From: a virus
Direction: 5' to 3' (one strand)
Virus record (IMG/VR): IMGVR_UViG_3300044675_008713
Coordinates: 1-25,374 of that record
DNA: 25,374 nt
The position numbers and the translations under genes are program-made. Below are positions 5,086 through 22,671 of the stretch, piece after piece. The notes under the pieces were generated by a model. That model was given only the letters and a program-made list of their open reading frames with translations, had not been told where the DNA came from and ran no database searches. Position 1 is the stretch's first letter. Every line of letters begins with the position of its first letter.

Positions 5086-5556
5086 ATGGCGAACGGAATT
5101 ACATATGGTATTAATTTTCCATTCAGAGATTCGAGACGAGGTGATTTTTTAGAACTCACCCAGTTAGAATCTCAACAGGTAAAATCTGATTTAATTCACT
5201 TACTTTTAACTAGGAAAGGGAGCAGATATTATTTACCTGAATTTGGAACTAGATTATACGAATTCTTATTTGAACCATTCGATGGTTTGACTTTTGACGC
5301 AATTCAATCAGACATTAGAGATGCGGTTCAACAATTTATGCCGAATCTTTTATTGAATCAAATCACAATTACACCAGCGGATCCTATGGAAGAAGTAGAT
5401 ACCATGATAGGGGAAAACATTATTGGTACGAGTGAATCTCCAATTTATAGATTACCGGGGAAAGGTACTTCAGAATATACTGCAAAAATTAGAATAGATT
5501 ACTCAAATAATAGATCGACTTTTGCTCAAAGTGATTTTGTTATTATTAATATTTAA
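5086..5556 (+). CDS. Baseplate wedge protein, GPW/gp25 family
   Basis: This 156-residue protein matches the T4 gp25 / GPW lysozyme-like fold family, which joins the baseplate wedge to the sheath and nucleates sheath assembly. Visible family features are a helical segment (SQQVKSDLIHLLLTRKGS, ~26-43), then RYYLPEFGTRLYEFLFEP (~44-61), the signature GxR...PEFG region. A following helix reads IQSDIRDAVQQFMP. Most gp25 proteins are ~130 residues; this one has an insert at about 98-130 before the final beta strands. The ATG has an AT-rich leader without Shine-Dalgarno. It is the first gene after the nrdA terminator and sits five bases upstream of the gp6-like gene, a wedge partner in T4, which supports the call. 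Confidence 0.87.
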   Translation: MANGITYGINFPFRDSRRGDFLELTQLESQQVKSDLIHLLLTRKGSRYYLPEFGTRLYEFLFEPFDGLTFDAIQSDIRDAVQQFMPNLLLNQITITPADPMEEVDTMIGENIIGTSESPIYRLPGKGTSEYTAKIRIDYSNNRSTFAQSDFVIINI

Positions 5557-5561
5557 TATAG

Positions 5562-7400
5562 ATGGCGAATCGTAAAATTTCATATACAACTAGAGATTAT
5601 CAGGGGATAAGAACTGAGTTACTAAATTATGTAAGAACCTATTATCCTGAATTAATACAAGATTTCAATGATGCATCTGTATTCTCAGTATTTTTGGATT
5701 TAAATGCCGCAGTTGCTGATAACTTACATTATCACATTGATAGAAGTATTCAAGAAACTGTATTACAATATGCTCAACAGAGGTCTTCAATATATAATAT
5801 AGCAAGAACCTATGGATTGAAACTTCCTGGTCAAAGACCATCAGTTTCTTTAGTAGATTTTTCAATTACGGTACCTGCCTTTGGAGATAAAGAAGATGAA
5901 AGATATCTTGGAATTTTATCTAGAGGGTCACAAGTTTCAGGTGCGGGTATTGTTTTCGAAAACATATACGATGTTGATTTCACATCACCATACAATGCCC
6001 AAGGATTTCCTAACAGATTAAAAATACCTAACTTCAATGCAAATAATATTTTGGTAAATTATACTATTACCAAAAGAGAATTAGTTGTTAATGGTATTAC
6101 TAAAGTTTTCAAAAGGGTTATTACACCAAACGATGTAAAACCATTTTTTGAATTGTTTTTACCTGAAAAAAATGTGTTGGGAATAACTAGTGTGTTACTT
6201 AAGAGTGGAACTGATTATACAAACATACCAACAACTGCAGAATTTTTAGGTGCTGCTAATAAATGGTATGAAGTAGATGCTTTGGCCGAAGATAGAGTTT
6301 TCATCGAAGACCCTACTAAAGTTTCGGACCAACCAGGTATTAAAGTTGGTAGATATATACAAACTCCGAACAGATTTATTAGTGAGTACACACCTGAAGG
6401 TTTCAAAAAGTTAACTTTCGGTGGTGGAACAAATACTGCACAAGATGCTCTTAATCAGTTTACCACATTAGGAACGACGATAGATTTACAGAGATATTCG
6501 AACAACATATCTTTAGGATCTGCTTTAACTCCGAACTCAACGTTATTTGTACAATATAGAATCGGAGGTGGTTTAGGTACTAACTTGGGAACGAATGTTA
6601 TCACTCAGATTGGTACGGTATCATTCTTTGTTAATGGACCATCAGAACTTACCAATTCATCTGTTGTTAATTCTTTAAGATGTAATAACGTTACTGCTGC
6701 AATCGGTGGGGCGGGATTACCATCACTCGAAGAAATTAGAAATTATGTGTCCTTCAATTTCTCAGCTCAAAAAAGAGCAGTTACAGTCCAAGACTATGAG
6801 TCTATTATCAGAAATATGCCATCAGAATTCGGTGCACCTGCCAAGGTTTCTGTTACTGAGAACAATAACAAAATTTTGATTCAATTATTGTCATATGACA
6901 CATCAGGAAAGTTAACGAACATTGTGTCTAATACATTAAGACAAAATGTTGCAACATACCTTTCTAATTATCGAATGATGAATGACTACATATCTATCCT
7001 TACTGCTGAGGTTATTGATTTGAGTCTCGAAGTTTCTATTGTTTTAACTTCCGCTCAGAATTCGGGTCAAGTTATTGCCGATGTTGTGGATAGGATTGCA
7101 ACTTATTTCAACCCTCAAGTAAGGGAGTTAGGACAAAATGTTTATTTATCTGAAATTCAAAGTATCGTACAAAATCAAAATGGAGTTTTAACAGTTTCAG
7201 GTATTAAGGTTTTCAATAATGTGGGGGGTCAGTATTCATCTGCGGAAACTTCTATGGAATATTCCGATCCTGAGACAAGACAAATTGCGCCTGTAGATTC
7301 TACAATTTTTGCGCAACCTTCACAGGTATACCAAATCAGATATCCAAATAAAGACATTAAAGTTTCAGTACAGAACTTTCAGTCTGTTACCTTTACATAA
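5562..7400 (+). CDS. Baseplate wedge protein, T4 gp6 / baseplate J-like
   Basis: This 612-residue protein resembles the gp6/baseplate-J family, which forms the ring linking the baseplate wedges. The N-terminus holds a typical helical region: TTRDYQGIRTELLNYVR, then DFNDASVFSVFLDLNAAVAD and a long helix through NIARTYGLKLPGQRPS (to about residue 90). Pro/Gly-rich beta domains follow. A later block (LEEIRNYVSFNFSAQKRA, then VTVQDYESIIRNMP, ~385-420) is characteristic of J-like proteins. Length is close to T4 gp6 (660). It directly follows the gp25-like gene with a five-base gap, as expected for wedge components. It ends 98 bases before the 1576-aa gene. Assignment is by motif reading only. Confidence 0.82.
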   Translation: MANRKISYTTRDYQGIRTELLNYVRTYYPELIQDFNDASVFSVFLDLNAAVADNLHYHIDRSIQETVLQYAQQRSSIYNIARTYGLKLPGQRPSVSLVDFSITVPAFGDKEDERYLGILSRGSQVSGAGIVFENIYDVDFTSPYNAQGFPNRLKIPNFNANNILVNYTITKRELVVNGITKVFKRVITPNDVKPFFELFLPEKNVLGITSVLLKSGTDYTNIPTTAEFLGAANKWYEVDALAEDRVFIEDPTKVSDQPGIKVGRYIQTPNRFISEYTPEGFKKLTFGGGTNTAQDALNQFTTLGTTIDLQRYSNNISLGSALTPNSTLFVQYRIGGGLGTNLGTNVITQIGTVSFFVNGPSELTNSSVVNSLRCNNVTAAIGGAGLPSLEEIRNYVSFNFSAQKRAVTVQDYESIIRNMPSEFGAPAKVSVTENNNKILIQLLSYDTSGKLTNIVSNTLRQNVATYLSNYRMMNDYISILTAEVIDLSLEVSIVLTSAQNSGQVIADVVDRIATYFNPQVRELGQNVYLSEIQSIVQNQNGVLTVSGIKVFNNVGGQYSSAETSMEYSDPETRQIAPVDSTIFAQPSQVYQIRYPNKDIKVSVQNFQSVTFT

Positions 7401-7498: not shown

Positions 7499-10400
7499 AT
7501 GGGTGATTCATATAGAATTAAGACCGAACTTGGGATTAACAAATCAATTAATGTACAGTTAGACCAAGAGTTTGAGTTCTTAGAAATATTATCTCTAAAA
7601 ATACAGCAAACTGATATCTACACAAGGAGTTGTGCGGATTATGGTGTTTTGGTGGGGAGAGTCACTGCGAATAATGGATTCGGAGTACCGAACGCTAGAG
7701 TTTCAATATTCATTCCTATTGACCAAGTAGATGAATCAAATCCATTAATTACAAGTATATATCCATACAAATCTCCGAATGATAAAAATGAGGATGGATA
7801 TAGATATAATTTACTCCCTTACACTCCTTCCTATTCCAAACATTCTGCAACAGGAACATTACCGACAAAGGCAGATGTTCTGACAGGTAGTACGGCTGTC
7901 GAGATTTATGACAAGTACTATCGATTTACTTCAAAAACCAATGATAGTGGTGATTACATGATTATGGGTGTTCCACTTGGAGAACAAAACATAGTTATGG
8001 ATGTCGACCTTTCAGATATTGGAGAGTTTTCTTTGACTCCTCAAGACCTGATAAGAATCGGTTTGGCAACTGAAGCACAAGTTGCTGGTAACAGATTTCG
8101 TACGTCAAACGACTTAAATTCTTTACCTCAGATAATCAATTTATCTAAAAGGGCAGAAATATCTCCGTTATGGGGAGATCCTGAAATATGCGATATATCC
8201 ATTAATAGATTAGATTTTGATTTACGAGATGATGCTAATGTTGATATTCAGCCAACCTCAGTTTTTATGGGGTCCATGTTTTCTTCTCCTGATAAATTTA
8301 GGATTAGAAAAAATTGTAAACCTAAAGATAATTTAGGTAACTTATGTGATTTGACTTCGGGACCTGGCCAAATATTGGCAATCAGACAAACTGTCCAACA
8401 AGATGAAGATGGAAATCCTGTTTTGGAAGTTTTTGAGTTGGAACAAGCTGGAAATATTATTGATGGTGACGGAACTTGGTTAACTGAATTACCAATGAAT
8501 TTGGACTATGTTGTAACAAATGAATTTGGGGAAAGGGTGTTATCCAACGATACAACTTTAGGTATACCAACTAAAGGGAAATATAGATTCAAAATAAAAT
8601 GGACTCAGCCGAATGATTTAACAATTCAAACAAGAAGACCAAGTTATTTGGTTCCTAACGTAAAAGAATATGGATGGACTACATCCACTTCCGACCCAAC
8701 ATTTAATCCACTTGCGAGTCCAACAGATAAAGATATACAAGAAAGTTCTTATTATTTCGGATTAGCTTGGACTGGTTATACCAATGGATTTACAGGTTCA
8801 GAACAGATAGATAGATTGAACGAAATAATTGATTGTGAGGATACATTCTATGAGTTTCAATTCAATCGAGTTTATACCATTTCCTCACTTATTGACCAAT
8901 ATAAAAAAGGGGGGAGAGGAAGATTTATAGGTATAAAAGAAATTGATGATGATGAATGTGCTAGTACTATCAATAAGTTTCCGGTAAATGATGGATTCAA
9001 AAATTTTGATTTACTGTATTTTTTGTTTTCGATAATTTTTACGGTAATTCAATTCGTTGGGTCAGTTCTTTTAATTGTCGCGCACCTTTTACTGTTTATA
9101 TATACTATTGTAATTCAAGCCTTGTGTTTTTTGTGTGACGTAGAAATCCCTGTAATCAAGGTACGACCGTTTGGATTTATTTGTAGATCTTTAAGGATAA
9201 AATGTGAAGATAAAAGTTTCTTGGTTCGATTACCAATGATAACATATCCCGATTGTCAGTCATGTAGCTGTAAAGATACGAATGTAGAGTCTTCAGCTTT
9301 ATTGAGTGGAACTAATGGAGTATTATCTTATGTTTCTTCACCATCAAGTTATTATGATGGTTTACAATCTTTGTTTGGTTCTGATGGTACACCGTCAGAA
9401 GATGTACAGTTGAAATCTTTAATTTTTTCTGAATCCATTGCAGGTAATAATGATTCTGTTACCGATTTGAATAAATTCAAAACACCAGTGTCACAGGTAG
9501 TCCGATTTTTATCAGATGAGTCGGATGAGAGAAGATATTTTACATATGCAACAAGTCTTACACTGGGAGAAAGAATAAATATATTTAACACCAGAAAATC
9601 GTATTTTGAAGAATTGAATAAAATTAAAGTGACTTTTTCTAAAAATTCAAATTTAGGGAAATATCACTTTGACAACACGGTAACTGTTTTGGCGAACCAA
9701 TTCTATGAATCTGGACAATTATTGACTACAGTCAACCCTGCAACGTCAACCGATAAAAATTTCTTGTATTTGGAACAAACTGACAATGGGTTGGTAAATG
9801 GAATAACGGGAACAACAATACAAGGTGCTACGAACGTAACTGTTAATTATGCTTTAACTGAATTGACAGATAGTAGTGTTTCTTATTCGTTACCAACTGG
9901 TAGTACTGTAACCCGTCAACAATATCCACAAGATAGAGAATATTTACAAGTTGTTACTGCGATAACTATTTCGGAGGCAATCAAAATATGGAATACAAAT
10001 AATTTGGAGGCATTCCCGAATATTTTAAGTGCACCATCAAGAATATTTTTAAGGAAAAAAAGAGGTTTTCCACTTCCAGGATATGAAAATGATGGTAACT
10101 TATTGATTAGTCCACTTTCAGTTTTAGAAAATTTAGATAATCAATACATACTAATTCTACAAAGAGGGGTTGACCCGTATTCTCCGAAATATGATAACGA
10201 ATATAAGTTAGGTCGACTTTTTGGAAAAAACATAGATGATTCTAATCTTACAATAACGGCTACAACTAGATTAAATATACCTATTCAAAAGTTAACGCAG
10301 ACAAATATTTCAGTCCAACCCTTCACCCAAAATGGAATGTTCTATCCATCCTATTTCTTCGAAGCTGGGAATGGTTTTAGTGGGTTTACGACTTCAACAG

Positions 10401-12229
10401 TTGGATATTATGGTAGTTTGGATGCTACACGTGACACAAATAGGGATGGGTTGAATAAGAGTAATATGGGGGGAGTAATTGGTATGGTTTCAAGAACCGA
10501 TAATGATTTTTACTCATCGACTCAAAATGCCGCAAAATATGATTCGTCTGAAGATGTCTCAGGTGCATCATATATCTATGCTAACATAAATCAGAATGGT
10601 TGGTTTGCTTATAGTAATGCTAGCTTCCGATATGTAACACCCAATGCTTATCCGATATTGACTGGATCCCCAATGTCTATCTCGTCCAAAGTTAAGAACG
10701 TAATGAGGAATGATAGATTACCTTCATCTGATGCATTGAACGGAAGTGCTTGGACTACAAATCCTGCATTGTTACAGCAGAATAATAATTTCATCTTCTA
10801 TGAAATACCTGAGTTAGATGAACCTGTTGAATTAGTGGGTTATGCGACAGGAGCTGAAATTCCCACTGCAGATTTGGAGGGGTTGCCAAATGAGTTGACA
10901 GTCTTATCAACATTTGATTGTGAAAACATGGTTGGTTTGGATTGTTATACAGGATTCGGAGATAGCTTTGAAGTAAATCAAGAATGTACTACAAAAGATG
11001 CGGTTGAGAGAGGATGTTATATGTTCATGAGAAGACCTGGATTAGACTTATTTAAGGATCTTGGAAATTTTGGTGAATGGGCTTTTAGATTTAGATTTTT
11101 CTATGGACTTTGTAGAGGAGTTCTTGCCCAATCATTTATGAACAATTGGATTAATGGTTCATTATATTTCTTTCCGATACAAGTTGATACTTTTTATAAT
11201 AGGCAAAATAGGGTTAGTAAGGTCGATTTTTGTAAAGATGTTGTTTATTACAATACTGATAGTAATAATTTTTATTATAGAAGTAGTCCTTATAACTTTA
11301 ATAATAATAGATTTGTTGGTAAAAAAACAAACAATGATGGTAGTGTAAATGATTTGAACTTATTGTTCCCTACAACTATTATCAATTTAGGAATGAAAGA
11401 TTATTTCTATTCTGAGATTACTTTCGATTCTTCGACTCGAGGGTTCATATTACCAAATTTAAGTCCGACAAGTTATGGAGATACATCTGACTTGGTTAAT
11501 TTATTTGTCATATCAAGAATTACTGATGAAAATTTCCTACAGCAATTGATTCCTTTGGGGGATAATTCCATCAATCAATTATTCTCAAGAGATGGTGACA
11601 ACAGAAGAATTGATGGGGACTTAGCGCAATTAATGTCGATTAACAGTGAAATTGGTAATATTAATTTTTCACCCGAGTATTATGATAATATTCCAGGACA
11701 ACCAAACCAGCCAACACAAATTCTTGGAACGGATAAGGATCCGACAATTGGTGTGTGGTTTTCTTCTACAACGGAGGATTTACAAACCAAAGATTACTTA
11801 ACACCTGGACGGATTAATTTTAGAGGTAATGATAACATTGGATATTATCCATATCCATATGGAATTAAATCTCAACAAGTTCCATTCTATCAGTGGAGAT
11901 TGGCTAATACCAAATTGATATTTGGAACTCAATTAAATAACTGGGCTACATCTTCATCTGACATTATTCAAAATACTGCATATCAATCTTTGGACAGATA
12001 TTCTACAAGTACACCGTATTTCTTAGGGAATAATTTCATGTCCAATGATTTGAACGCACGTGGATACATCTTCAATGTTACTGGAACTGTTGGAGATGGA
12101 CAATACATTCCGACTGGTGCTTTGAAACAAAAGTTTGTGGTAGGGGCACCATTCCAATTTTATTTTGGAACAATTGTAGGTGAAACCGCTTTGGATAAAT
12201 TCAAAACAAAGTATTCTGTAGATGAATAA
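7499..12229 (+). CDS. Very large tail/baseplate structural protein with Ig-like N-terminus and membrane-like segment
   Basis: This 1576-residue protein is not recognisable as a known T4 component; its operon position implies a baseplate or tail-tip role. Residues 5-19 (YRIKTELGINKSINV) match the N-terminus of the 276-aa protein encoded at 13906. Residues ~44-170 look like a carboxypeptidase-regulatory-like Ig domain (GRVTANNGFGVPNARVSIFI, then NDSGDYMIMGVPLG). Residues 505-546 form a 42-residue stretch with no charged residue except possibly H529, long enough for two membrane helices. Seven cysteines follow between 543 and 591, ending in the cluster CQSCSC. The rest is Asn/Ser/Tyr-rich beta-type sequence with a second cysteine-bearing part at ~1138-1180. 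The ATG lacks a Shine-Dalgarno. The end overlaps the next gene by eight bases. Confidence 0.8.
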   Translation: MGDSYRIKTELGINKSINVQLDQEFEFLEILSLKIQQTDIYTRSCADYGVLVGRVTANNGFGVPNARVSIFIPIDQVDESNPLITSIYPYKSPNDKNEDGYRYNLLPYTPSYSKHSATGTLPTKADVLTGSTAVEIYDKYYRFTSKTNDSGDYMIMGVPLGEQNIVMDVDLSDIGEFSLTPQDLIRIGLATEAQVAGNRFRTSNDLNSLPQIINLSKRAEISPLWGDPEICDISINRLDFDLRDDANVDIQPTSVFMGSMFSSPDKFRIRKNCKPKDNLGNLCDLTSGPGQILAIRQTVQQDEDGNPVLEVFELEQAGNIIDGDGTWLTELPMNLDYVVTNEFGERVLSNDTTLGIPTKGKYRFKIKWTQPNDLTIQTRRPSYLVPNVKEYGWTTSTSDPTFNPLASPTDKDIQESSYYFGLAWTGYTNGFTGSEQIDRLNEIIDCEDTFYEFQFNRVYTISSLIDQYKKGGRGRFIGIKEIDDDECASTINKFPVNDGFKNFDLLYFLFSIIFTVIQFVGSVLLIVAHLLLFIYTIVIQALCFLCDVEIPVIKVRPFGFICRSLRIKCEDKSFLVRLPMITYPDCQSCSCKDTNVESSALLSGTNGVLSYVSSPSSYYDGLQSLFGSDGTPSEDVQLKSLIFSESIAGNNDSVTDLNKFKTPVSQVVRFLSDESDERRYFTYATSLTLGERINIFNTRKSYFEELNKIKVTFSKNSNLGKYHFDNTVTVLANQFYESGQLLTTVNPATSTDKNFLYLEQTDNGLVNGITGTTIQGATNVTVNYALTELTDSSVSYSLPTGSTVTRQQYPQDREYLQVVTAITISEAIKIWNTNNLEAFPNILSAPSRIFLRKKRGFPLPGYENDGNLLISPLSVLENLDNQYILILQRGVDPYSPKYDNEYKLGRLFGKNIDDSNLTITATTRLNIPIQKLTQTNISVQPFTQNGMFYPSYFFEAGNGFSGFTTSTVGYYGSLDATRDTNRDGLNKSNMGGVIGMVSRTDNDFYSSTQNAAKYDSSEDVSGASYIYANINQNGWFAYSNASFRYVTPNAYPILTGSPMSISSKVKNVMRNDRLPSSDALNGSAWTTNPALLQQNNNFIFYEIPELDEPVELVGYATGAEIPTADLEGLPNELTVLSTFDCENMVGLDCYTGFGDSFEVNQECTTKDAVERGCYMFMRRPGLDLFKDLGNFGEWAFRFRFFYGLCRGVLAQSFMNNWINGSLYFFPIQVDTFYNRQNRVSKVDFCKDVVYYNTDSNNFYYRSSPYNFNNNRFVGKKTNNDGSVNDLNLLFPTTIINLGMKDYFYSEITFDSSTRGFILPNLSPTSYGDTSDLVNLFVISRITDENFLQQLIPLGDNSINQLFSRDGDNRRIDGDLAQLMSINSEIGNINFSPEYYDNIPGQPNQPTQILGTDKDPTIGVWFSSTTEDLQTKDYLTPGRINFRGNDNIGYYPYPYGIKSQQVPFYQWRLANTKLIFGTQLNNWATSSSDIIQNTAYQSLDRYSTSTPYFLGNNFMSNDLNARGYIFNVTGTVGDGQYIPTGALKQKFVVGAPFQFYFGTIVGETALDKFKTKYSVDE

Positions 12230-13919
12230 GTATACGTTAATACCGAGTGGAATGAGATATAAGGGAGCTCCATCTTTGGATGAGGAGATTTCTTTAACGC
12301 TTCAAGAGCAGAGTCAAGAACTCACTGAGTATGATAGGACTTCGACCTTGAATTTGGCTCAGATTTATGATGATGAACGACAAACAAGTACGATATTTAG
12401 ACCAACGTTTAAGATTACGTATTTGTATGATAACACCTATACAGGTACTACGACTTATTTACCATTCGAATATAATCTGTATTACAGTGACCCTGTGTCT
12501 TCGAAACAAAGTGGTGTTTGGAGGGGGTTCCCTCAATATTATGAGTTTGATTTTTATAGACCAAACGTAGGTGATAACCACTTTCAATATAAAGCAAAAA
12601 GTGCATACACTTATAATTGGACATATTACATAACATATCCATATGAGAATGATAGTAATAGACAATTAACATACTACTCGACAACAAATAATAATGTCAA
12701 CTGGACTGCATCAAGTGGTATACCTTTTTCGATTACAAACAATACTCAGAATGGTAATGGATTGGTTTCATTTATTTGTATTGCTCCTCATGGATTAACA
12801 ACGGGTCAATATGTGGAACTATCACTCACTTACCGTGATTCTAATATATTTCAGGTATATTCTATAGGTAATGGATTATTTGGAAGTGATAAGTATGTTT
12901 TTAACTTATTTAATATTGGATTCACAGGAGCAACATTTAATACTGGTACCATTGGAACATTCCGAAGGGTTATCAATCCTGATAATTTAACGGAAACTAG
13001 ATCGAAATATTATGTTAAGAAATATAAGGTCTTGACTAATGTTACAGACCTTGCAGTCACGAAGGCAGGATTCGAAAAAAATGTTTTCGGTGAAGAGAAG
13101 AAGTTGGAATTTAGTTCCATAACTCCGAATAATATTACGAGAATATCACAGAAATCGAGTAGTAATGCATATGATATAACGTCTAACTATGACTTAGACT
13201 TTGCGGGTTTATTAGATAACCAAAAAAGACCACTGAATGAAATAAGTCTTACTATTGTTAATAAAGGTTATTCAGGTTATTTTAATCAATCATTTAATGG
13301 AGTTGGTTTGAAACAAGGGTGGGAGTTCAATTTATCCAAAACAATAAATCCTTGGTGGGATTTGAACAATCAAAGGTCAAATACAAACATACCAGTTTCG
13401 GCGTATACTCTCACCAGTGGTGCGACAAAAACATTCTATTACAATACTGATTTAAAAGTAGGAGATGTTATGGATGGTGATTTTTGTGAATGGAATGACT
13501 ATGAACAAGTTGAGAGAGTAGTATCTCCATATTACCATAAGATAAAATTCAATCAAAACGTATTTCAAACCACTAGTAATTTTTCAACAAATTCACCGGG
13601 TTATTATTATAAACCTCACAACTCAATGGTGTTGAGGGTTTTTTCAGATTATATTGAGACTGCAGAATTGGGGCTTATTGATAATGTCCCAAGTTGGGCA
13701 TTTTATTCAACTACGGACCAAGAGTTCCGATGGAGGGATATTTATACTTATGGATTTATTGACAACTTGCGTAGGGGAGTTAATTATCCATATTTGAATT
13801 CGGCACAGTATCCATACACCCAAGTCATATTCAGACTGATACCTGAAGGAATAAATTATAATGATAATCTTGACGGATTTGACTTCGCGATAAAACCACT
13901 AATAGATGAGTGTGAATAA
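12222..13919 (+). CDS. Tail/baseplate structural protein of unknown function (565 aa)
   Basis: I do not recognise this family. The protein is rich in Tyr, Asn, Thr and Ser with few cysteines, a composition common in beta-rich phage tail and fibre proteins. No signal peptide, membrane helix or catalytic motif is visible. The N-terminus (MNKYTLIPSGMRYKGAPS) is followed by a short helical stretch to about residue 50, then mostly predicted beta sequence. Its ATG lies inside the end of the 1576-aa gene (eight-base overlap) and its own end overlaps the next gene by 14 bases, so it is probably translated by coupling and made with its neighbours. A role in the baseplate periphery or host-contact apparatus is inferred from position only. 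Confidence 0.75.
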   Translation: MNKYTLIPSGMRYKGAPSLDEEISLTLQEQSQELTEYDRTSTLNLAQIYDDERQTSTIFRPTFKITYLYDNTYTGTTTYLPFEYNLYYSDPVSSKQSGVWRGFPQYYEFDFYRPNVGDNHFQYKAKSAYTYNWTYYITYPYENDSNRQLTYYSTTNNNVNWTASSGIPFSITNNTQNGNGLVSFICIAPHGLTTGQYVELSLTYRDSNIFQVYSIGNGLFGSDKYVFNLFNIGFTGATFNTGTIGTFRRVINPDNLTETRSKYYVKKYKVLTNVTDLAVTKAGFEKNVFGEEKKLEFSSITPNNITRISQKSSSNAYDITSNYDLDFAGLLDNQKRPLNEISLTIVNKGYSGYFNQSFNGVGLKQGWEFNLSKTINPWWDLNNQRSNTNIPVSAYTLTSGATKTFYYNTDLKVGDVMDGDFCEWNDYEQVERVVSPYYHKIKFNQNVFQTTSNFSTNSPGYYYKPHNSMVLRVFSDYIETAELGLIDNVPSWAFYSTTDQEFRWRDIYTYGFIDNLRRGVNYPYLNSAQYPYTQVIFRLIPEGINYNDNLDGFDFAIKPLIDECE

Positions 13920-14736
13920 ATTTGTAATTAGACAAGATGTTGGTGTTGACAAACAAATCAACATACCTGTGGAACTCAAGTGGGATTATTTGGGGTTAGA
14001 CTTGGCAATTGATGAGTATGAGACCAAAGTAATTAAAGAAGTCATTGGTGACGGTAGAGATTTTGAGGTTTCAAGATTTGCGCATGCACCTGCTACAGGA
14101 ACTACGAATGATACATTAATCAATTACGAATTTTATTTTTATTCAGGAGGATCTCTTGATGAATCAATTAATTGGAGAGTAAATTATTTAAGTGAAGGAT
14201 TTACTCCACAAGAAGTATATTATTATGAGAACGTGTTTTCCAATTCGTTTTTTAAGTTGGATTTTTATGACACACCTGATGAAAAACAACAAACAAATTA
14301 TCTTACAATAATATTACCAACACAACAAGGTTTAATGATGGAGACCCAAATGCAACGAACTTTGGTTAATATTAGAAAACCACAATTTGTTTTAGATTAT
14401 GTTGGGGACAAAGAAGGGTTTTTTGTCTATTGGTTGAAGAAACGAAATTTCCTTAATATAAATACATTTTATATGACTGCGAAGTTTTTCAATGCAAAGA
14501 CTGGACAATTCACAAAAATGATGACAGGTAGAGGAACAAGTTCAGTAGACCTCACCAACGGACCTCAATTCAATTTGAGAGGAAATAAGTTTGCCTTTGA
14601 CAACACACAGTTTTTCTATTATACCGTCAGACTTGATTATGAAACACAAACTTACCAAGTGTTTAATACTAGTGGACAAAGGGTGGGTACCAATATACCC
14701 ATAAAATGGTATGAATATGTAAATCCGCCACAATAA
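13906..14736 (+). CDS. Tail/baseplate structural protein of unknown function (276 aa), shared N-terminal motif
   Basis: Residues 6-20 (FVIRQDVGVDKQINI) align without gaps to residues 5-19 of the 1576-aa protein. The pattern is aromatic-x-I-basic-x-acidic-hydrophobic-G-hydrophobic-N/D-K-x-I-N-hydrophobic, followed by another beta-like stretch in both. The remainder is beta-rich with many aromatic residues (YEFYFYSGG, VFSNSFFKLDFYD) and shows no enzyme motif. The start overlaps the previous gene by 14 bases. The stop TAA shares its last base with the next ATG (TAATG at 14734-14738). The shared N-terminus suggests that both proteins dock to the same partner or site in the baseplate; that is inference. 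Confidence 0.75.
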   Translation: MSVNKFVIRQDVGVDKQINIPVELKWDYLGLDLAIDEYETKVIKEVIGDGRDFEVSRFAHAPATGTTNDTLINYEFYFYSGGSLDESINWRVNYLSEGFTPQEVYYYENVFSNSFFKLDFYDTPDEKQQTNYLTIILPTQQGLMMETQMQRTLVNIRKPQFVLDYVGDKEGFFVYWLKKRNFLNINTFYMTAKFFNAKTGQFTKMMTGRGTSSVDLTNGPQFNLRGNKFAFDNTQFFYYTVRLDYETQTYQVFNTSGQRVGTNIPIKWYEYVNPPQ

Positions 14737-15858: not shown

Positions 15859-16644
15859 ATGAGAAAAATTGTTTTTACTGAAAAAGAGATTTCTGAAATT
15901 GAGAGAGATTATTTAATAAATAATTTGTCCTGCGAAACTATTGGAAAAAAGTTTGGAGTAAGTAAAAGACCAATTAACAATATTTTAAAGAAAAACGGAA
16001 AATTAAAAAAAGGGTTGAGTGATGGAAAAAAAATTAATATGACCGATGAACAAATAAAAACTATCAAAAAATTATATTTAGAAGAATTAAAAAGTACCGA
16101 TTATATTGCGAAAACATTAAATTTAACTAAATTTTTTATTGATAAATTTTTATCTATCTCAGGATATAGAAGAAGTCGTGGTGAAGCAATATCCTTAAGG
16201 CAATTAGGTAAAAAAAGAAGTGAAAAAGTCATTAGGATTTTAACTTTAGCCCAACAAAAATATAGTAGAAGTGGAAAAAGAAAACAAACGGGAGGAGTTT
16301 GTGATACTTTTTTCATAAGTGGGATTGAATGTCAAGGTACCTATGAAAAATTTTACATTGAATCTTTGATTAAAGAAAATAAACTACTCCCAACCAATTC
16401 AATTTCCTTTGAAACACCATACGGTGTTTATTATCCTGATTTTTCATTTACTGATAAATTAATTGAGATTAAATCTGATTATACTTATGATATTTTGTTG
16501 GGGAATCGGATAAGTAGATTTACAAAAAAAATAGATAAAACACAATATAAAAAAATCGAATGGGTTCATAAGAATATAAAACCTGTTGAAATTATTATTG
16601 TTGATAAGAGAAAAAATAAACTAACAAAAAAAGAAATCAAGTGA
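15859..16644 (+). CDS. Free-standing homing-type endonuclease, double HTH plus PD-(D/E)XK nuclease
   Basis: This 261-residue protein appears to be an intergenic homing endonuclease. Two N-terminal helix-turn-helix units are visible: residues ~7-46 (CETIGKKFGVSKRPINNILK) and ~62-103 (TDYIAKTLNLTKFFIDKFL). The C-terminal half carries a PD-(D/E)XK site: E163 (or E169) in the leading helix, then P193-D194 in YYPDF and E203-x-K205 in LIEIKS. These are the expected metal-binding and catalytic residues, so it is probably active. The gene is Lys-rich and visibly more A+T-rich than its neighbours, a sign of transfer. It interrupts an operon whose other junctions overlap. Its TGA overlaps the downstream GTG start (GTGA at 16641-16644). 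A DNA-repair nuclease or regulator is possible but less likely. No Shine-Dalgarno is near the ATG. Confidence 0.8.
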   Translation: MRKIVFTEKEISEIERDYLINNLSCETIGKKFGVSKRPINNILKKNGKLKKGLSDGKKINMTDEQIKTIKKLYLEELKSTDYIAKTLNLTKFFIDKFLSISGYRRSRGEAISLRQLGKKRSEKVIRILTLAQQKYSRSGKRKQTGGVCDTFFISGIECQGTYEKFYIESLIKENKLLPTNSISFETPYGVYYPDFSFTDKLIEIKSDYTYDILLGNRISRFTKKIDKTQYKKIEWVHKNIKPVEIIIVDKRKNKLTKKEIK

Positions 16645-17549
16645 GTATAGGAAGCTACGGTACAATAAGACCAAGTGATGTTTCACCAGCGGATGTAGAT
16701 ATCATAATGAATTATACTCCTACAAGGGATGTGACAGACCAGTTTGTTCTGACAAAGTTGGACGCACAAACAATATTAAGACCTTATTTTGCAAACTCAG
16801 AAACAGGAGGAAATGCAGGTGTTGAAGTTTTGGGGGGACTTTATAATCTAACATTACCTGCAAACCAATTTAATGCATTAGGTATTTACACTTTATATTT
16901 AAGACCTGCAGAAATTAGAACGGTTATTAGTGATTGTGGTGTACTTAGCTCATTACCAAACGTGAAGGGGATTATAATTGATGTTTCTGATGTACCGACA
17001 CAATATCAAAATAAATTTGTTCCACAAGGATTGGTTGGATTCAGAGTTGAATATCTAAATACTGATGGGTCAAAAATTCCTAATTTCTTCAGAGTTGTAA
17101 CATCAAGTTTCTTCTGTGAACCTGTTGTGACAAATGAAGTTAATACAACGCAAAAAGCGATTAGATATAGATATGTTGAAGGAAACTCAAATTTGATATT
17201 CCTAACTCTGTCACCGTCTTCATCACCAACAAACAAACCAAACGCAACTCCGTACATCGGACAGCCTGACCAAGATATTATTATTACGAACACCTTCTTC
17301 AACCCAGTATCTATTGAGGTGGAAATGGTTGAGTACGATATTTCTTCTCTTGCAATTGCTCTATATGGTAATCAAACCAAGTCTATCGATGATGGTATCT
17401 ACACTATCTATGACTCTAATGACAACATATACAGACAGTACAACCTATACGAAATTAGAGACCAATTTAATGCTCTTCTTTATGAGGTTAGACAAAGTAG
17501 AGGCAATAATATTGATTTCAGTAAAAACTTTACAAATATAACTAGTTAA
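16641..17549 (+). CDS. Tail/baseplate structural protein of unknown function (302 aa), GTG start
   Basis: The reading frame opens only at 16620 and has no ATG before residue 23. GTG at 16641 is therefore the likely start, giving SIGSYGTIRPSDVSPADVD as the first residues after Met. The protein is beta-rich, without membrane or enzyme motifs; its C-terminus is more helical (YEIRDQFNALLYEVRQSRG). I do not recognise the family. Its length is near that of T4 gp8 (334 aa), but I see no motif supporting that identity. The start overlaps the endonuclease stop by four bases, and the stop TAA overlaps the next ATG by one base. Translation probably depends on ribosomes finishing the endonuclease, an arrangement created by the insertion. 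Confidence 0.77.
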   Translation: MSIGSYGTIRPSDVSPADVDIIMNYTPTRDVTDQFVLTKLDAQTILRPYFANSETGGNAGVEVLGGLYNLTLPANQFNALGIYTLYLRPAEIRTVISDCGVLSSLPNVKGIIIDVSDVPTQYQNKFVPQGLVGFRVEYLNTDGSKIPNFFRVVTSSFFCEPVVTNEVNTTQKAIRYRYVEGNSNLIFLTLSPSSSPTNKPNATPYIGQPDQDIIITNTFFNPVSIEVEMVEYDISSLAIALYGNQTKSIDDGIYTIYDSNDNIYRQYNLYEIRDQFNALLYEVRQSRGNNIDFSKNFTNITS

Positions 17550-20536
17550 TGGCTACGACTCAAGGTACTACCAAATTTTTTTACCCACCACGTCCAGGTA
17601 GTGGTGCTGCAACCTTCTCTGACAACATTGTAGGATTACAAACAGTCGAAGGGGGAGGACTTACGCAAGGTAACTTTGAGTTCACAACTTCTATTACAGA
17701 AAGGGTAACTAGAACTTTTAATGTTGGGGCATTCTCTGAACCAATAAGTTTGGAGGGGTTAGACATTAATGACTTAACTGAGAGTAGGAGAATAATGGCG
17801 ACACAGTTCAGGGTATACCCGAACTACGACGTGTCACAGGTTTTGAATTTCTCAATGTATGGGTCATTGAGTAAGAGATTCCAAGTATCAATTACCGAAA
17901 TTATTCATAGGTTTCCGGCATCTTTGGACATATTATTCAATAACGAAGATTTTGTTACTGGCGCTACAGCGACTAATATATCCTACGATTCAACATTAGA
18001 TGAAACATCATTTAGAATTAATGTAAGTAGAATAAATAATCCGTTTGATATCGATTATTCTTTAAGTGCGACAACTAACTTGTCGGTAAGAGAGATTACA
18101 GTTTCACCTTATAGAAATTTATATAACACATATTTGGAATATTGTGTCGCAATTAATGATAATATTTTTAACATTGTTGCATTCACACCATCACAAACAT
18201 TATCAACAGGATTCGTTGAATTTATTGTATCGGGAGCACCATTTGGTACAACTGCAACTACAACTTTTGAAGAATTTCAAGTAAGACCTAATGACTTTGT
18301 TGTCGATAGAATTTTTGCAGAAGATTTTGATGAGGTACAAAAATTTTTATTAAATCGACTTATAAGACCTGAGTATACTGCGGTTTTCCAAGTTCCACAA
18401 CAAAATGAAGGTGGACAATTTTTCACCGACTTTCAACAAGTAACATGGCCTAAATCAGGTCCTTGGAATTTGGATATTAGGTCATTCTTGTTTGAAAGTT
18501 ATTTGGAACAACTTGAAGCGATTGCAATTAATTTGGATTCATTCAAGACAAATTTGATTTCAAGATTTTTGGTTACAGATTCATTGAAAGAATTTGACAC
18601 ATTGGGGCAAAAAGTTGAGAAGATATTTCAAATTTATGGTAGAAGTTTTGACCAAATCAAACAATTCATAGATGCGTTGGCATATATGAATTCAGTTAGT
18701 TACAATCCATCGAATGATATTCCATCACAACTTTTGGTTAATTTGGCACAAACACTTGGATGGAGTTCAAATTTTTCACCAATAACGAATGAGGACTTCT
18801 TGAGTTCGGTATTCGGAAATACTTCAACGCCAACGTATCCTGGTTATGCTAGAGCATTAACACCAACAGAATTGAATTATGCATTCTATCGAAATTTGAT
18901 TTTGAATGCATCTTATTTGTTCAAATCAAAGGGGACGAGAAGGTCTGTTGAATTCATGCTAAGATTAATTGGTGCACCTGATTCTTTGATTGAGTTCAAT
19001 GAGCACATTTATTTGGCTGACCAAAAGATTAACATGGACCAGTTTGGTATTCAATGGGCATCAATTTCTGGTGGTACATATGTTGAAAACACGCCAAGCT
19101 TTATACCTGGATCGACTTATAAAATAAAGGGACAAATCTATAGTGCGTTCACTTCAACAGCAACATATCAAGATGTTAATACAAGGTTGGATGATTATCC
19201 TGTGGATTTGGAAGGGTTTCCAAAAGCACCTGTTAATACTGAGAGTTATTTCTTCCAATTGGGAGCGGGATGGTATGAGTCAACTCCATCGCATAGAAGT
19301 CCTGATGAAGTAACTATAACAGGTCAGGTGTTTACGGGCCAAAATTTTAATATTCAAACACAGTTAGCTCCGTTCACATATGGACAACCTTACTTGAATA
19401 GATTCAGAGACTTTCCATTCATGACTGAAGGGTTCAAACTTAAAAAGGTGGTTGATAACAATAAGTCTTGGTTAGAGGAAGATGATAGAATTAGAGTTTC
19501 AACAAGTGCTGATTATAATGCATATTATTTTGTTGACAATGAAAAATTGGTGTTGAATGTTAAAAATGTTGATTTATTTTTGAATCCTGCGCAAGGTTTG
19601 GTGTATGACGTTTGGGAACAATCGAGGAGATACGATTATCCGATTCCTGAATCAGGATTAACGGTTGGATATCCTGTTCCTGGTGGTGTTGATTCTACAT
19701 TCATAAATCCTCAGCCAAAAAAGAAAACCTTTTTCGAGTTCGCTCAAACTTTTTGGGAGAACATGATTAATGTTAGAAACCGTCAATACATTACTGATGG
19801 AAAAACTGGAGGATATCCGGTATTACAATCAATTTTTTGGAAATACATTGAATCTCAAGGTACGGTTGGGTTACCTAATAACAAATATACATATCAAAAA
19901 TTAATTGATTATGTAAACGGTATTGGTCCATATTGGATGAAGTTGGTGGAGCAAATGATTCCTGCGACAACAATATGGAATACAGGAGTAAGAATGGAGA
20001 ATTCTATATTCCAAAGACAGAAGTTTGTTTATAGAAGGCAAAGAGGATGTCGGTTTATTCCTGTTCCTGTTGATCCTTGTTTCATTATCTCGAGCATATT
20101 TGATTATACCTGTACAACAGAATATACCGACTTCAACATATTTCCGTGGTTGAATGGTGATGTTGACGTTAGTAATTTTAATAGTATCTTATCGAATAGA
20201 GTTAATAATATGTTGGCACAAAGTGGGTTGACATTAAATGATTGTATTCAGAATTCAGTTGAAAGTAATTGGTATGTTGATTTAAGAATTGGTGGGGAAA
20301 TAATAATTCAAGAATTGTATTATGTTGGATATGGATTTACAGATGTACCGACTAATACAATGTGGAGGAATGCTTTGATACAATATCTACCACAACTATA
20401 TGACTATGGATTTACTTTTTTCTTAAATGGTAACTTACTAACAATTACAAGTCTTACTTGTACAGAAAGAAATATTAATGAGACACTTTCCTTGAATTCG
20501 GGAATAAATATAAGTATAAATTGTACTAATAACTAA
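17549..20536 (+). CDS. Large baseplate wedge protein, T4 gp7-sized with tail protein I (P2 gpI)-like region
   Basis: This 995-residue protein is close in length to T4 gp7 (1032). Its middle contains a helical section (~300-480) ending in FKSKGTRRSVEFMLRLIGAP (458-477). That resembles the KGT...hydrophobic helix...G pattern of P2 gpI-type tail proteins, which connect the baseplate to fibres. The N-terminal ~290 residues are beta-rich. A further helical part near 770-830 includes WKYIESQGTVGL and WMKLVEQMIPATTIWNTGVR, a feature also seen in wedge proteins. The C-terminal ~110 residues appear related to the C-terminus of the next protein: VPTNTMW begins exactly 63 residues from the end. In context with gp25- and gp6-like genes, a gp7-like wedge role is plausible; this is motif-level inference. 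One-base overlaps (TAATG) join it to both neighbours. Confidence 0.72.
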   Translation: MATTQGTTKFFYPPRPGSGAATFSDNIVGLQTVEGGGLTQGNFEFTTSITERVTRTFNVGAFSEPISLEGLDINDLTESRRIMATQFRVYPNYDVSQVLNFSMYGSLSKRFQVSITEIIHRFPASLDILFNNEDFVTGATATNISYDSTLDETSFRINVSRINNPFDIDYSLSATTNLSVREITVSPYRNLYNTYLEYCVAINDNIFNIVAFTPSQTLSTGFVEFIVSGAPFGTTATTTFEEFQVRPNDFVVDRIFAEDFDEVQKFLLNRLIRPEYTAVFQVPQQNEGGQFFTDFQQVTWPKSGPWNLDIRSFLFESYLEQLEAIAINLDSFKTNLISRFLVTDSLKEFDTLGQKVEKIFQIYGRSFDQIKQFIDALAYMNSVSYNPSNDIPSQLLVNLAQTLGWSSNFSPITNEDFLSSVFGNTSTPTYPGYARALTPTELNYAFYRNLILNASYLFKSKGTRRSVEFMLRLIGAPDSLIEFNEHIYLADQKINMDQFGIQWASISGGTYVENTPSFIPGSTYKIKGQIYSAFTSTATYQDVNTRLDDYPVDLEGFPKAPVNTESYFFQLGAGWYESTPSHRSPDEVTITGQVFTGQNFNIQTQLAPFTYGQPYLNRFRDFPFMTEGFKLKKVVDNNKSWLEEDDRIRVSTSADYNAYYFVDNEKLVLNVKNVDLFLNPAQGLVYDVWEQSRRYDYPIPESGLTVGYPVPGGVDSTFINPQPKKKTFFEFAQTFWENMINVRNRQYITDGKTGGYPVLQSIFWKYIESQGTVGLPNNKYTYQKLIDYVNGIGPYWMKLVEQMIPATTIWNTGVRMENSIFQRQKFVYRRQRGCRFIPVPVDPCFIISSIFDYTCTTEYTDFNIFPWLNGDVDVSNFNSILSNRVNNMLAQSGLTLNDCIQNSVESNWYVDLRIGGEIIIQELYYVGYGFTDVPTNTMWRNALIQYLPQLYDYGFTFFLNGNLLTITSLTCTERNINETLSLNSGINISINCTNN

Positions 20537-22671
20537 TGGCGGTTTTAAATTATAACATAACGGTAACTGGTGATTGTTCCAATAATAATTCTGGAGCTTT
20601 CAATTTATTCGTGAGTGATGGGACACCTCCATATACTGTAGAATTCATTAGTCCGTCTTATGCGTCTCAAACCATAACAACTCAACCAGCGTCTTTAGTT
20701 GGAATTGCAAGTAGGGTTTATCAGGTCAGGGTCAATGATAGTAGTTTACCGACCAACAATGAATTCTTGCTCAATATACCGATATCAAGTGGTGTTTGTG
20801 GGTCAATATCTGCGGTACAAAACACAACTTGTGGAGTCAATAACGGTTCAGTTACAGGTTCGTCAACATCATTATATTCATCAACGGATTTTTCATTATA
20901 TAATATAAACAACAATTATCTTGCTTCTGCGACAACGAATACAAATGAGGCTGTTTTCGGAAGTTTGAGTGCTGGAACTTATTATTTGGGAGTTACGGAC
21001 TTAGGAGGATGTACAGCATTTACTCAGACATTTATAATTGAAGGATCTGAACCTTTAGATTTCGGTTTGTATGTGGTACCTAATTCAAGTTGTGGGGGAG
21101 CTCCAATAGGTAAAATTTTTGTTACAGGTCAAACTGGGCAATCACCATATAGTTATTTGTGGAATAATGGGCAGACGGGTAGTACAATTACTGGATTAAC
21201 ATCAGGTAACTATTCAGTTGCTGTGACAGATGCATTCGGTTGTACTTTATCTAAGGAGGGAACAATAACAAACGTGAACCCTGTTGGACTTGGATTATTT
21301 ACCTCAACAGCACCAACTTGCCTTCAATCGAACGGGGTTATTAATATGACCATTACAGGAGGTACTGAGCCTTTTTATTATTCAGCATCAACTGGAAATG
21401 TTTTGGTTTCATATTCAAGAACTTTTTCTTTGTCAGGATTATCTGCCGGACAATACAACTTTCAAGTAACAGATGCGGGGTTATGCCAAATGTTTGCGGG
21501 GACAACACTTGAAACGCCAGGTGGATTAACAAGTGTTACGGTACAAGGTCAAAACTCAACGTGTTCAAGTACTAATGGTTCAATAACTGTAAATGTGGTT
21601 GGAGGTAATTCACCATATACTTATACATTAGTTTATCCTACAGGTAATCAACTTAATATTAGTAATTCTCAAACTACTCAAATATTCAGTAATTTAAGTG
21701 GGGGAACATATACTGTCGCGGTTTCAGACAATTCGGGGTGTGCGTTTATGGAGGAGGTTACTTTAGTTGCGCAAAACAAGTTTACAATTTCAACACAAGT
21801 GGTTGGAACAAGTTGTAATCAAAATAATGGTTCGGTTACAATTCTTACCACAGCGGGAAGTACTTTACCTTTGGATTATTCTGTTGATGGATTACAAAAT
21901 ATTATTGACACAAACTTAACTGCAGTAACCTTCAATAATTTATCATCAGGTACTCATGTTGTTTCGGTAACGGATGCTGATGGATGTGTTCAAACTACGA
22001 ACATATTAGTGCCGAGTAGCCAACCCTTAAACTATTCTTTATATAGTACTTCTTGTGGTAGTGGGTCAAGTGGAAAAATTACGGCATTCATTACTTCGGG
22101 TGAGCCACCATTCACTTTCAATTGGTCAGACAATGTACCAAATGATCCACAACAAATACAAGTTAGTGGATTGACCGCTGGAACATATTCTTTGACGGTA
22201 GTTGACTCAAATGGATGTTCATTAACGAGAAACACCACAATAACCTGTAGTACAAATTCTACGAATTATCAAACCTATATCATGGGAGCTGAAGTATTCA
22301 ATATTCAGTCTCCGACTAAGTTTGGTTTATTACAAATGTTGAATGAGGGTTATTTCGATTTAACATCGGGGAATGTAGGTTGTGAATTACTAAGTGCTAC
22401 ATTTACTGCGAAGGTTTCTGTGGATCCATCAGGAATAGTTGCAACACAAAATTTCTTTACATCGACTTCATTAGTACAAGTACCGACAGATAACCAATGG
22501 TATAACACAATCCGTACTTTATTATTAGGAATACCTGGTGTGGGGGATGTTACAATAGACCAACTAAATAACCAAATAACAATCGAAACAAGTAAAAATA
22601 ATACTTCTTTGCAGGGACAAGAAATAGTTATCGATCTAGTTATAGACTATAATATAATTTGTTCAGCATGA
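20536..22671 (+). CDS. SprB-repeat tail fibre/adhesin-like protein
   Basis: This 711-residue protein is built from about six SprB-like repeats (residues ~97-563) after a divergent first copy (~10-85). Each unit starts with a Cys in a xxCxxxNGSI-type turn, runs through GGxxPYxY, and ends with LSAGTYxVxVTDxxGC. SprB repeats are typical of Bacteroidota gliding-motility adhesins; here they probably form an extended, host-contacting tail fibre. The C-terminal ~135 residues are different and share a module with the preceding 995-aa protein: VPTDNQW begins 63 residues from the end in this protein and VPTNTMW does so in that one. No signal peptide is present, as expected for a virion protein. It overlaps the 995-aa gene by one base and the downstream gene by ATGA. 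Confidence 0.8.
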   Translation: MAVLNYNITVTGDCSNNNSGAFNLFVSDGTPPYTVEFISPSYASQTITTQPASLVGIASRVYQVRVNDSSLPTNNEFLLNIPISSGVCGSISAVQNTTCGVNNGSVTGSSTSLYSSTDFSLYNINNNYLASATTNTNEAVFGSLSAGTYYLGVTDLGGCTAFTQTFIIEGSEPLDFGLYVVPNSSCGGAPIGKIFVTGQTGQSPYSYLWNNGQTGSTITGLTSGNYSVAVTDAFGCTLSKEGTITNVNPVGLGLFTSTAPTCLQSNGVINMTITGGTEPFYYSASTGNVLVSYSRTFSLSGLSAGQYNFQVTDAGLCQMFAGTTLETPGGLTSVTVQGQNSTCSSTNGSITVNVVGGNSPYTYTLVYPTGNQLNISNSQTTQIFSNLSGGTYTVAVSDNSGCAFMEEVTLVAQNKFTISTQVVGTSCNQNNGSVTILTTAGSTLPLDYSVDGLQNIIDTNLTAVTFNNLSSGTHVVSVTDADGCVQTTNILVPSSQPLNYSLYSTSCGSGSSGKITAFITSGEPPFTFNWSDNVPNDPQQIQVSGLTAGTYSLTVVDSNGCSLTRNTTITCSTNSTNYQTYIMGAEVFNIQSPTKFGLLQMLNEGYFDLTSGNVGCELLSATFTAKVSVDPSGIVATQNFFTSTSLVQVPTDNQWYNTIRTLLLGIPGVGDVTIDQLNNQITIETSKNNTSLQGQEIVIDLVIDYNIICSA
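20824..22224 (+). repeat. Six tandem SprB-like protein repeats
   Basis: Within the 711-aa protein, unit-opening cysteines occur at residues 99, 186, 262, 343, 427 and 507. Matching closing cysteines lie in the (D)xxGC motif at 159, 236, 317, 402, 484 and 561 (GLC in unit three). The period is 76-87 residues. The units are clearly related at protein level but diverged at DNA level, so this is an old duplication rather than a recent tandem expansion. The paired cysteines could form one disulfide per unit. Confidence 0.75.

Follow-up and report, generated by a model that had tools for sequence, protein, structure and literature searches.

A protein of the baseplate module, here called X and representing an undescribed family, was found to carry a long hydrophobic segment together with a dense group of cysteines, and we consider it somewhat probable that this segment, predicted to be a helix, is a module with which the baseplate protein embeds in a membrane at infection. 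X (1576 aa, defined by translation and synteny) is encoded on the forward strand at positions 7499..12229 of the window, that is, the whole stretch of 25,374 nucleotides of viral DNA analysed, and its reading frame was open over its whole length. No matches to X were obtained in Pfam, PHROGs or NCBIfam, and its comparison by sequence with solved structures gave nothing significant; a large protein left blank by current family libraries can now be given an anatomy.

Hydrophobic segment and cysteines of X

As the preliminary description had stated, residues 505-546 of X (9011-9136) contained no D, E, K or R, being bordered by D504 and D547, and seven cysteines occurred within 49 residues (positions 543, 546, 562, 569, 586, 589, and 591), ending in CQSCSC. 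An uncharged run of 42 residues was obtained in 65 of 2000 shuffles of X and, taken alone, is only mildly unusual for the composition of the protein. The hydrophobicity of the 42-mer and the density of cysteines are not due to chance: the mean Kyte-Doolittle value of 2.37 was not reached in any of 5000 shuffles (best shuffle, 1.88) and seven cysteines within 49 residues appeared in none of 2000. A single 19-residue window at 2.57, the value found in the helix, was reached in 52 of 5000 shuffles. No 19-residue window exceeded 1.07 in the rest of X, and the segment was the most hydrophobic among the main ORFs of the stretch analysed (1.83 for the next-highest ORF).

The region was modelled with AlphaFold2 in two jobs, using as input X and a close set of 107 nonredundant homologues (<88% identity). 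A helix was predicted at residues 505-546 in job one (pLDDT 75-80 over most of the helix) and at 505-547 in job two (pLDDT 83-92; whole-model mean 84.9). Both jobs modelled a single continuous helix, and the double segment or hairpin proposed at first was not sustained for this protein. With 43 residues and a window value of 2.57, the helix (aa 505-547; 9011..9139, forward strand), delimited by AlphaFold2, conservation and periodicity, is predicted to be long enough to span a bilayer. Its family profile displayed a 100-degree periodicity over 38 residues, matched in 0 of 20,000 permutations, and one narrow polar stripe ran along it (S511, T515, Q518, H529, and T536), H529 being kept in 93 of the 107 homologues. 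Conservation and hydrophobicity correlated positively along the helix (Spearman +0.41), with hydrophobic positions at least as conserved as polar ones, a pattern that does not speak for surfaces facing lipid.

The cysteines surround this helix on the same strand. C487 (8957..8959), located ahead of the helix and invariant in the 107 homologues, is part of the feature although it lies just beyond the range first marked (8990-9275). A tip loop with C543, C546, C562, and C569 (9125..9205) was defined by comparison of homologues, and the near-invariant closing motif RLPMITYPDCQSCSC (9227..9271), recognised in the 107 homologues, contains C586, C589, and C591. The cluster described initially thus held in part: C586 and C589 were invariant and C591 was present in at least 90% of the homologues, whereas the four tip cysteines were lineage-specific. 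Together with C487, the three cysteines of the closing motif form a candidate C4 site that may bind a metal.

In the N-terminal part of X, a putative CnaB/CarboxypepD_reg-like beta domain was placed with Foldseek and Pfam at about aa 45-170 (7630..8010, forward strand; boundaries approximate). In Foldseek the N-terminal model was matched with pilin and SdrD B domains at E values between 5e-5 and 1e-3, the TM-scores being low, and PF13620 matches to this domain in X homologues fell below the Pfam cut-off, the likeness to CnaB and carboxypeptidase-regulatory-like domains being weak at the level of the model. A Foldseek likeness of the same model to cholesterol-dependent cytolysins was discarded, with TM-scores near 0.1. 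The model of aa 380-1576 gave no Foldseek match at E 0.001 and VIA-align Z values of 3.9 at most, which does not imply a new fold.

Baseplate operon and virus

Genes in the window followed the order DnaB-like helicase, ribonucleotide reductase, gp25, gp6, X, o565, o276, o363, an endonuclease-like ORF, o302, a 995-aa protein, and a SprB-repeat protein. The gp25-like (5086..5556; PHROG 261, E 1.8e-17) and gp6-like (5562..7400; PHROG 219, E 1.1e-20) baseplate wedge subunits are both encoded on the forward strand, and the gp6 family HMM matched T4 gp6 with an E value of 1e-9 in a 10-sequence set. Among 106 nonredundant homologous loci, gp6 was present in all 106 and gp25 in 96, each sharing the strand of X, and X is a protein of a T4-like baseplate operon by its synteny with both. 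The 565-aa protein o565 (12222..13919, forward strand) was a constant partner downstream of X (100 of 106 loci). Within the same loci X changed much faster than gp6, which fits a host-facing part.

The 995-aa protein (17549..20536, forward strand) was recognised as a gp7/tail-protein-I-like wedge protein by its SKGTRRS motif, of the type seen in gp7-like wedges, and by its family HMM, which in a test set of 10 sequences reached an E value of 3.2e-5 on the large ORF of Flavobacterium phage immuto. A KGT-type motif was not found in X on reading its sequence, and the X family HMM did not score significantly on T4 gp7 or on the large ORFs of immuto, Mel-JY01, and LR756508. The identification of X as gp7 was consequently rejected and, since the 995-aa ORF displays both the motif and the match to immuto, X represents an additional protein.

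Other ORFs of the region were also inspected. A 261-aa ORF (15859-16644), which matches a helix-turn-helix weakly and contains a PD-(D/E)xK-like motif (YPDFSFTDKLIEIK), probably encodes a homing endonuclease within the baseplate operon, and it was present at just one of the 106 other loci (L168). Downstream of the gp7-like gene, a 711-aa protein (20536-22671) contained SprB repeats (PF13573, E 2.7e-16). The N-terminus of o276 (13906-14736) resembled that of X over 28 residues with an hhalign probability of 7%, which is only a hint that the two might share an N-terminal baseplate adaptor.

The virus belongs to an uncultured, contractile-tailed phage lineage whose host is probably a member of Bacteroidota. 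SprB repeats and missing Shine-Dalgarno motifs are pointers to Bacteroidota; a Shine-Dalgarno-like motif was missing at 16 of 17 starts, and the nearest relatives of the terminase and gp6 were those of Flavobacterium phage immuto and of one uncultured huge phage, all of which led to this host assignment. Contigs bearing X relatives, which included records of 236 to 380 kb, may belong to the moraphages, aquatic jumbo phages described in 2025 (PMC12619734), which reach 307 kb, are predicted to infect Bacteroidota and yielded no identified tape measure gene. HSP70, sought as a link to this group, was not found in nine contigs.

The module in close and distant relatives

All close homologues kept the hydrophobic stretch, and none lacked both the stretch and the cysteines. 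Mean pairwise identity among the 107 homologues was 37 and 29% in the two halves of the helix and 67 and 62% in the two flanks of the segment; the helix halves were 80% nonpolar, with 0.7 and 3.6% of charged residues, respectively. Conservation of the element as hydrophobicity, and not as sequence, is supported by these alignments. Insert boundaries could be parsed in 102 homologues, all of which presented a 19-residue window with a Kyte-Doolittle value of at least 2.0. The segment varied between a single helix and about four TM-like segments (two in 52, three in 30, and four in 3 of the 102), with inserts reaching up to 141 residues. Flanking charge averaged -0.9 on the N side and +2.8 on the C side, the latter being positive in 88 of 102. 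The inserts gave no significant Pfam match, and the earlier idea that fusion with some known membrane protein gave rise to the element found no backing.

Tips of the module contained four, two or no cysteines in the relatives; those free of cysteines were either a bare helix or a stretch of at most about 140 residues containing two to four TM-like segments. In 47 members with less than 65% identity, the tip cysteine count was even in 43 (zero in 21 of these) and odd in 4, which suggests that tip cysteines are paired, this count being inflated by shared ancestry. Five homologues (L009, L012, L022, L096, and L120) had a second hydrophobic insertion, about 45 residues long, near aa 1031 (equivalent to position 10589 of the window), where a loop linking beta strands is predicted; the window protein and the relatives closest to it lack this insertion.

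Scans of metagenomic viral contigs yielded at least 348 confirmed X relatives, and a tblastn search of 50,697 phage records gave no match for X or for the distant members L153, L212, L228, L229 and L230. The uncharacterized protein A0A8S5LA66 (Myoviridae sp. ctPuP5, BFVD) belongs to the same family, as judged by its Foldseek match to the N-terminal model of X (E 4e-44; 34% identical residues across 592 columns). Among 97 full-length distant relatives, 91 presented a window of at least 1.9, mostly at the corresponding place and in many cases in a cysteine-rich protein (up to 60 cysteines), and the remaining six, of about 690-770 residues, showed no hydrophobic segment and contained 4 to 10 cysteines. 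The sister members L290 and L357, with their relatives, displayed 50 to 60 cysteines, with long cysteine-rich stretches directly after the helix.

Helix and cysteine cluster were both missing from short forms (G007/L250, L228, L230, L232, L233, and L234), and the 380-kb contig G007 encoded a long X member with the segment plus a short one without it. An o565-like neighbour was found beside long members and beside each of these short ones. Since the short members lack helix and cluster, the helix is an added module, dispensable for the shared N-terminal region and for the partnership with o565.

Possible roles and comparison with known systems

On the reading we favour, X would be an extra baseplate protein, probably located at the wedge periphery as its gene order suggests, that joins a T4-like wedge formed by gp25, gp6, and the gp7-like protein, with o565 acting as its partner. 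The module, consisting here of one 43-residue helix plus a cysteine-rich tip and in relatives of up to about four segments, would sit between near-invariant flanks, its ends putatively stapled by C487, C586, C589, and C591 via metal or disulfides. Neighbouring subunits would shield the helix in the free virion, until opening of the baseplate on the cell would let several copies of X enter a host membrane. Once inserted, these copies would hold the baseplate in place, or they would line the tube's passage or seal it like a gasket, with the narrow polar stripe (S/T/Q/H/N) presumably facing neighbouring helices. From the membrane-inserting element suggested in the preliminary description, this proposal retains what is backed by conserved hydrophobicity, variable segment number, and root cysteines, and it drops the hairpin and the fusion origin.

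Lipid contact is favoured over a buried core by hydrophobicity kept without sequence, the variable number of segments, the positive juxtamembrane charge, the fast evolution of X, and the dispensability seen in paralogues; the straight helix of 43 residues, which exceeds the length needed for one bilayer, counts against embedding. The twice-predicted helix with its narrow polar stripe, and the second hydrophobic insertion of five relatives, also count in favour of embedding. The main rival, a structural helix buried in the core of an X oligomer, or packed on o565 and the wedge and never meeting lipid, is in our opinion unlikely, though by no means negligible. Its heptad-like S/T/Q/H/N stripe would pack in a helical bundle, with the cysteines acting as zinc or disulfide staples, and both the coherent helical periodicity over 38 residues and the positive correlation between conservation and hydrophobicity argue for such packing. 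So does T4 gp7, annotated with a 'predicted integral membrane domain' (hydrophobic window near 886), which is a soluble wedge protein; hydropathy alone can therefore mislead. A buried helix accounts poorly, however, for the near-total lack of charge at low sequence identity in the 107 homologues, for growth to two to four TM-like segments in inserts of up to 141 residues, and for paralogues that manage without it.

Morphogenesis instead of entry would be served if the helix fastened X, and with it the baseplate under assembly, to the inner membrane of the cell that makes the phage, an arrangement with a precedent in Cis13, where deletion of the TM helix frees particles (PMC8894136). We regard this as improbable, given that phage tails have to leave the cell and no second component for release is known, and the fast evolution of X suggests a changing external partner. 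Absence of the module from distant short relatives is what might be expected of a recent fusion with a membrane protein, or of a functionless frameshift or assembly artefact; this explanation is contradicted by conservation of the module in all close homologues and in 91 of the 97 full-length distant ones, as well as by the open frame throughout and inserts unlike any Pfam family at significance, and we hold it to be very improbable indeed.

Extending the membrane-embedding proposal to the whole family, we tentatively suggest that a large uncultured lineage of contractile phages may possess a modular, baseplate-borne membrane-embedding device, with one to about four helices and a cysteine-staple root, which would serve to anchor or open the host envelope. 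To our knowledge, such an entry step has not been described for T4-like phages. The contact of the myophage baseplate with lipid and the sealing of the tube during DNA entry are poorly understood, and the baseplate-lipid question would become testable with a widespread family whose conserved hydrophobic module has one to about four segments and which includes TM-less paralogues.

Among proteins of known systems, T4 gp7 resembles X in adjoining gp6, in its large size, and in having several cysteines and a single hydrophobic stretch; it differs in that no profile similarity links the two and the window encodes its own gp7-like protein. The nearest precedents for the proposed action of X are Cis13 and the T5 tape measure. 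Cis13, from the thylakoid contractile injection system of Anabaena, anchors the particle by a TM helix (PMC8894136) and, like X, whose attachment is proposed from gene order, carries a predicted TM helix on a baseplate-attached protein; it is a tail-fibre-like trimer with the helix at its C-terminus, whereas in X the module is internal and flanked by conserved cysteines. On the best reading, the functional analogue of the X helix may be the hydrophobic segment of the T5 tape measure pb2, whose approximately 46 hydrophobic residues were proposed to insert in the outer membrane and form a channel there during infection (PMC10038345). Both are tail-module proteins with a long hydrophobic segment, the place of X in the virion being suggested by gene order. 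T5 is a siphophage whose pb2 lies in the tube lumen and has a stretch read as two TM helices, in contrast to one long predicted helix in a baseplate-operon protein of a contractile phage, and both gene position and the beta-rich model make X unlikely to be a tape measure protein inside the tube.
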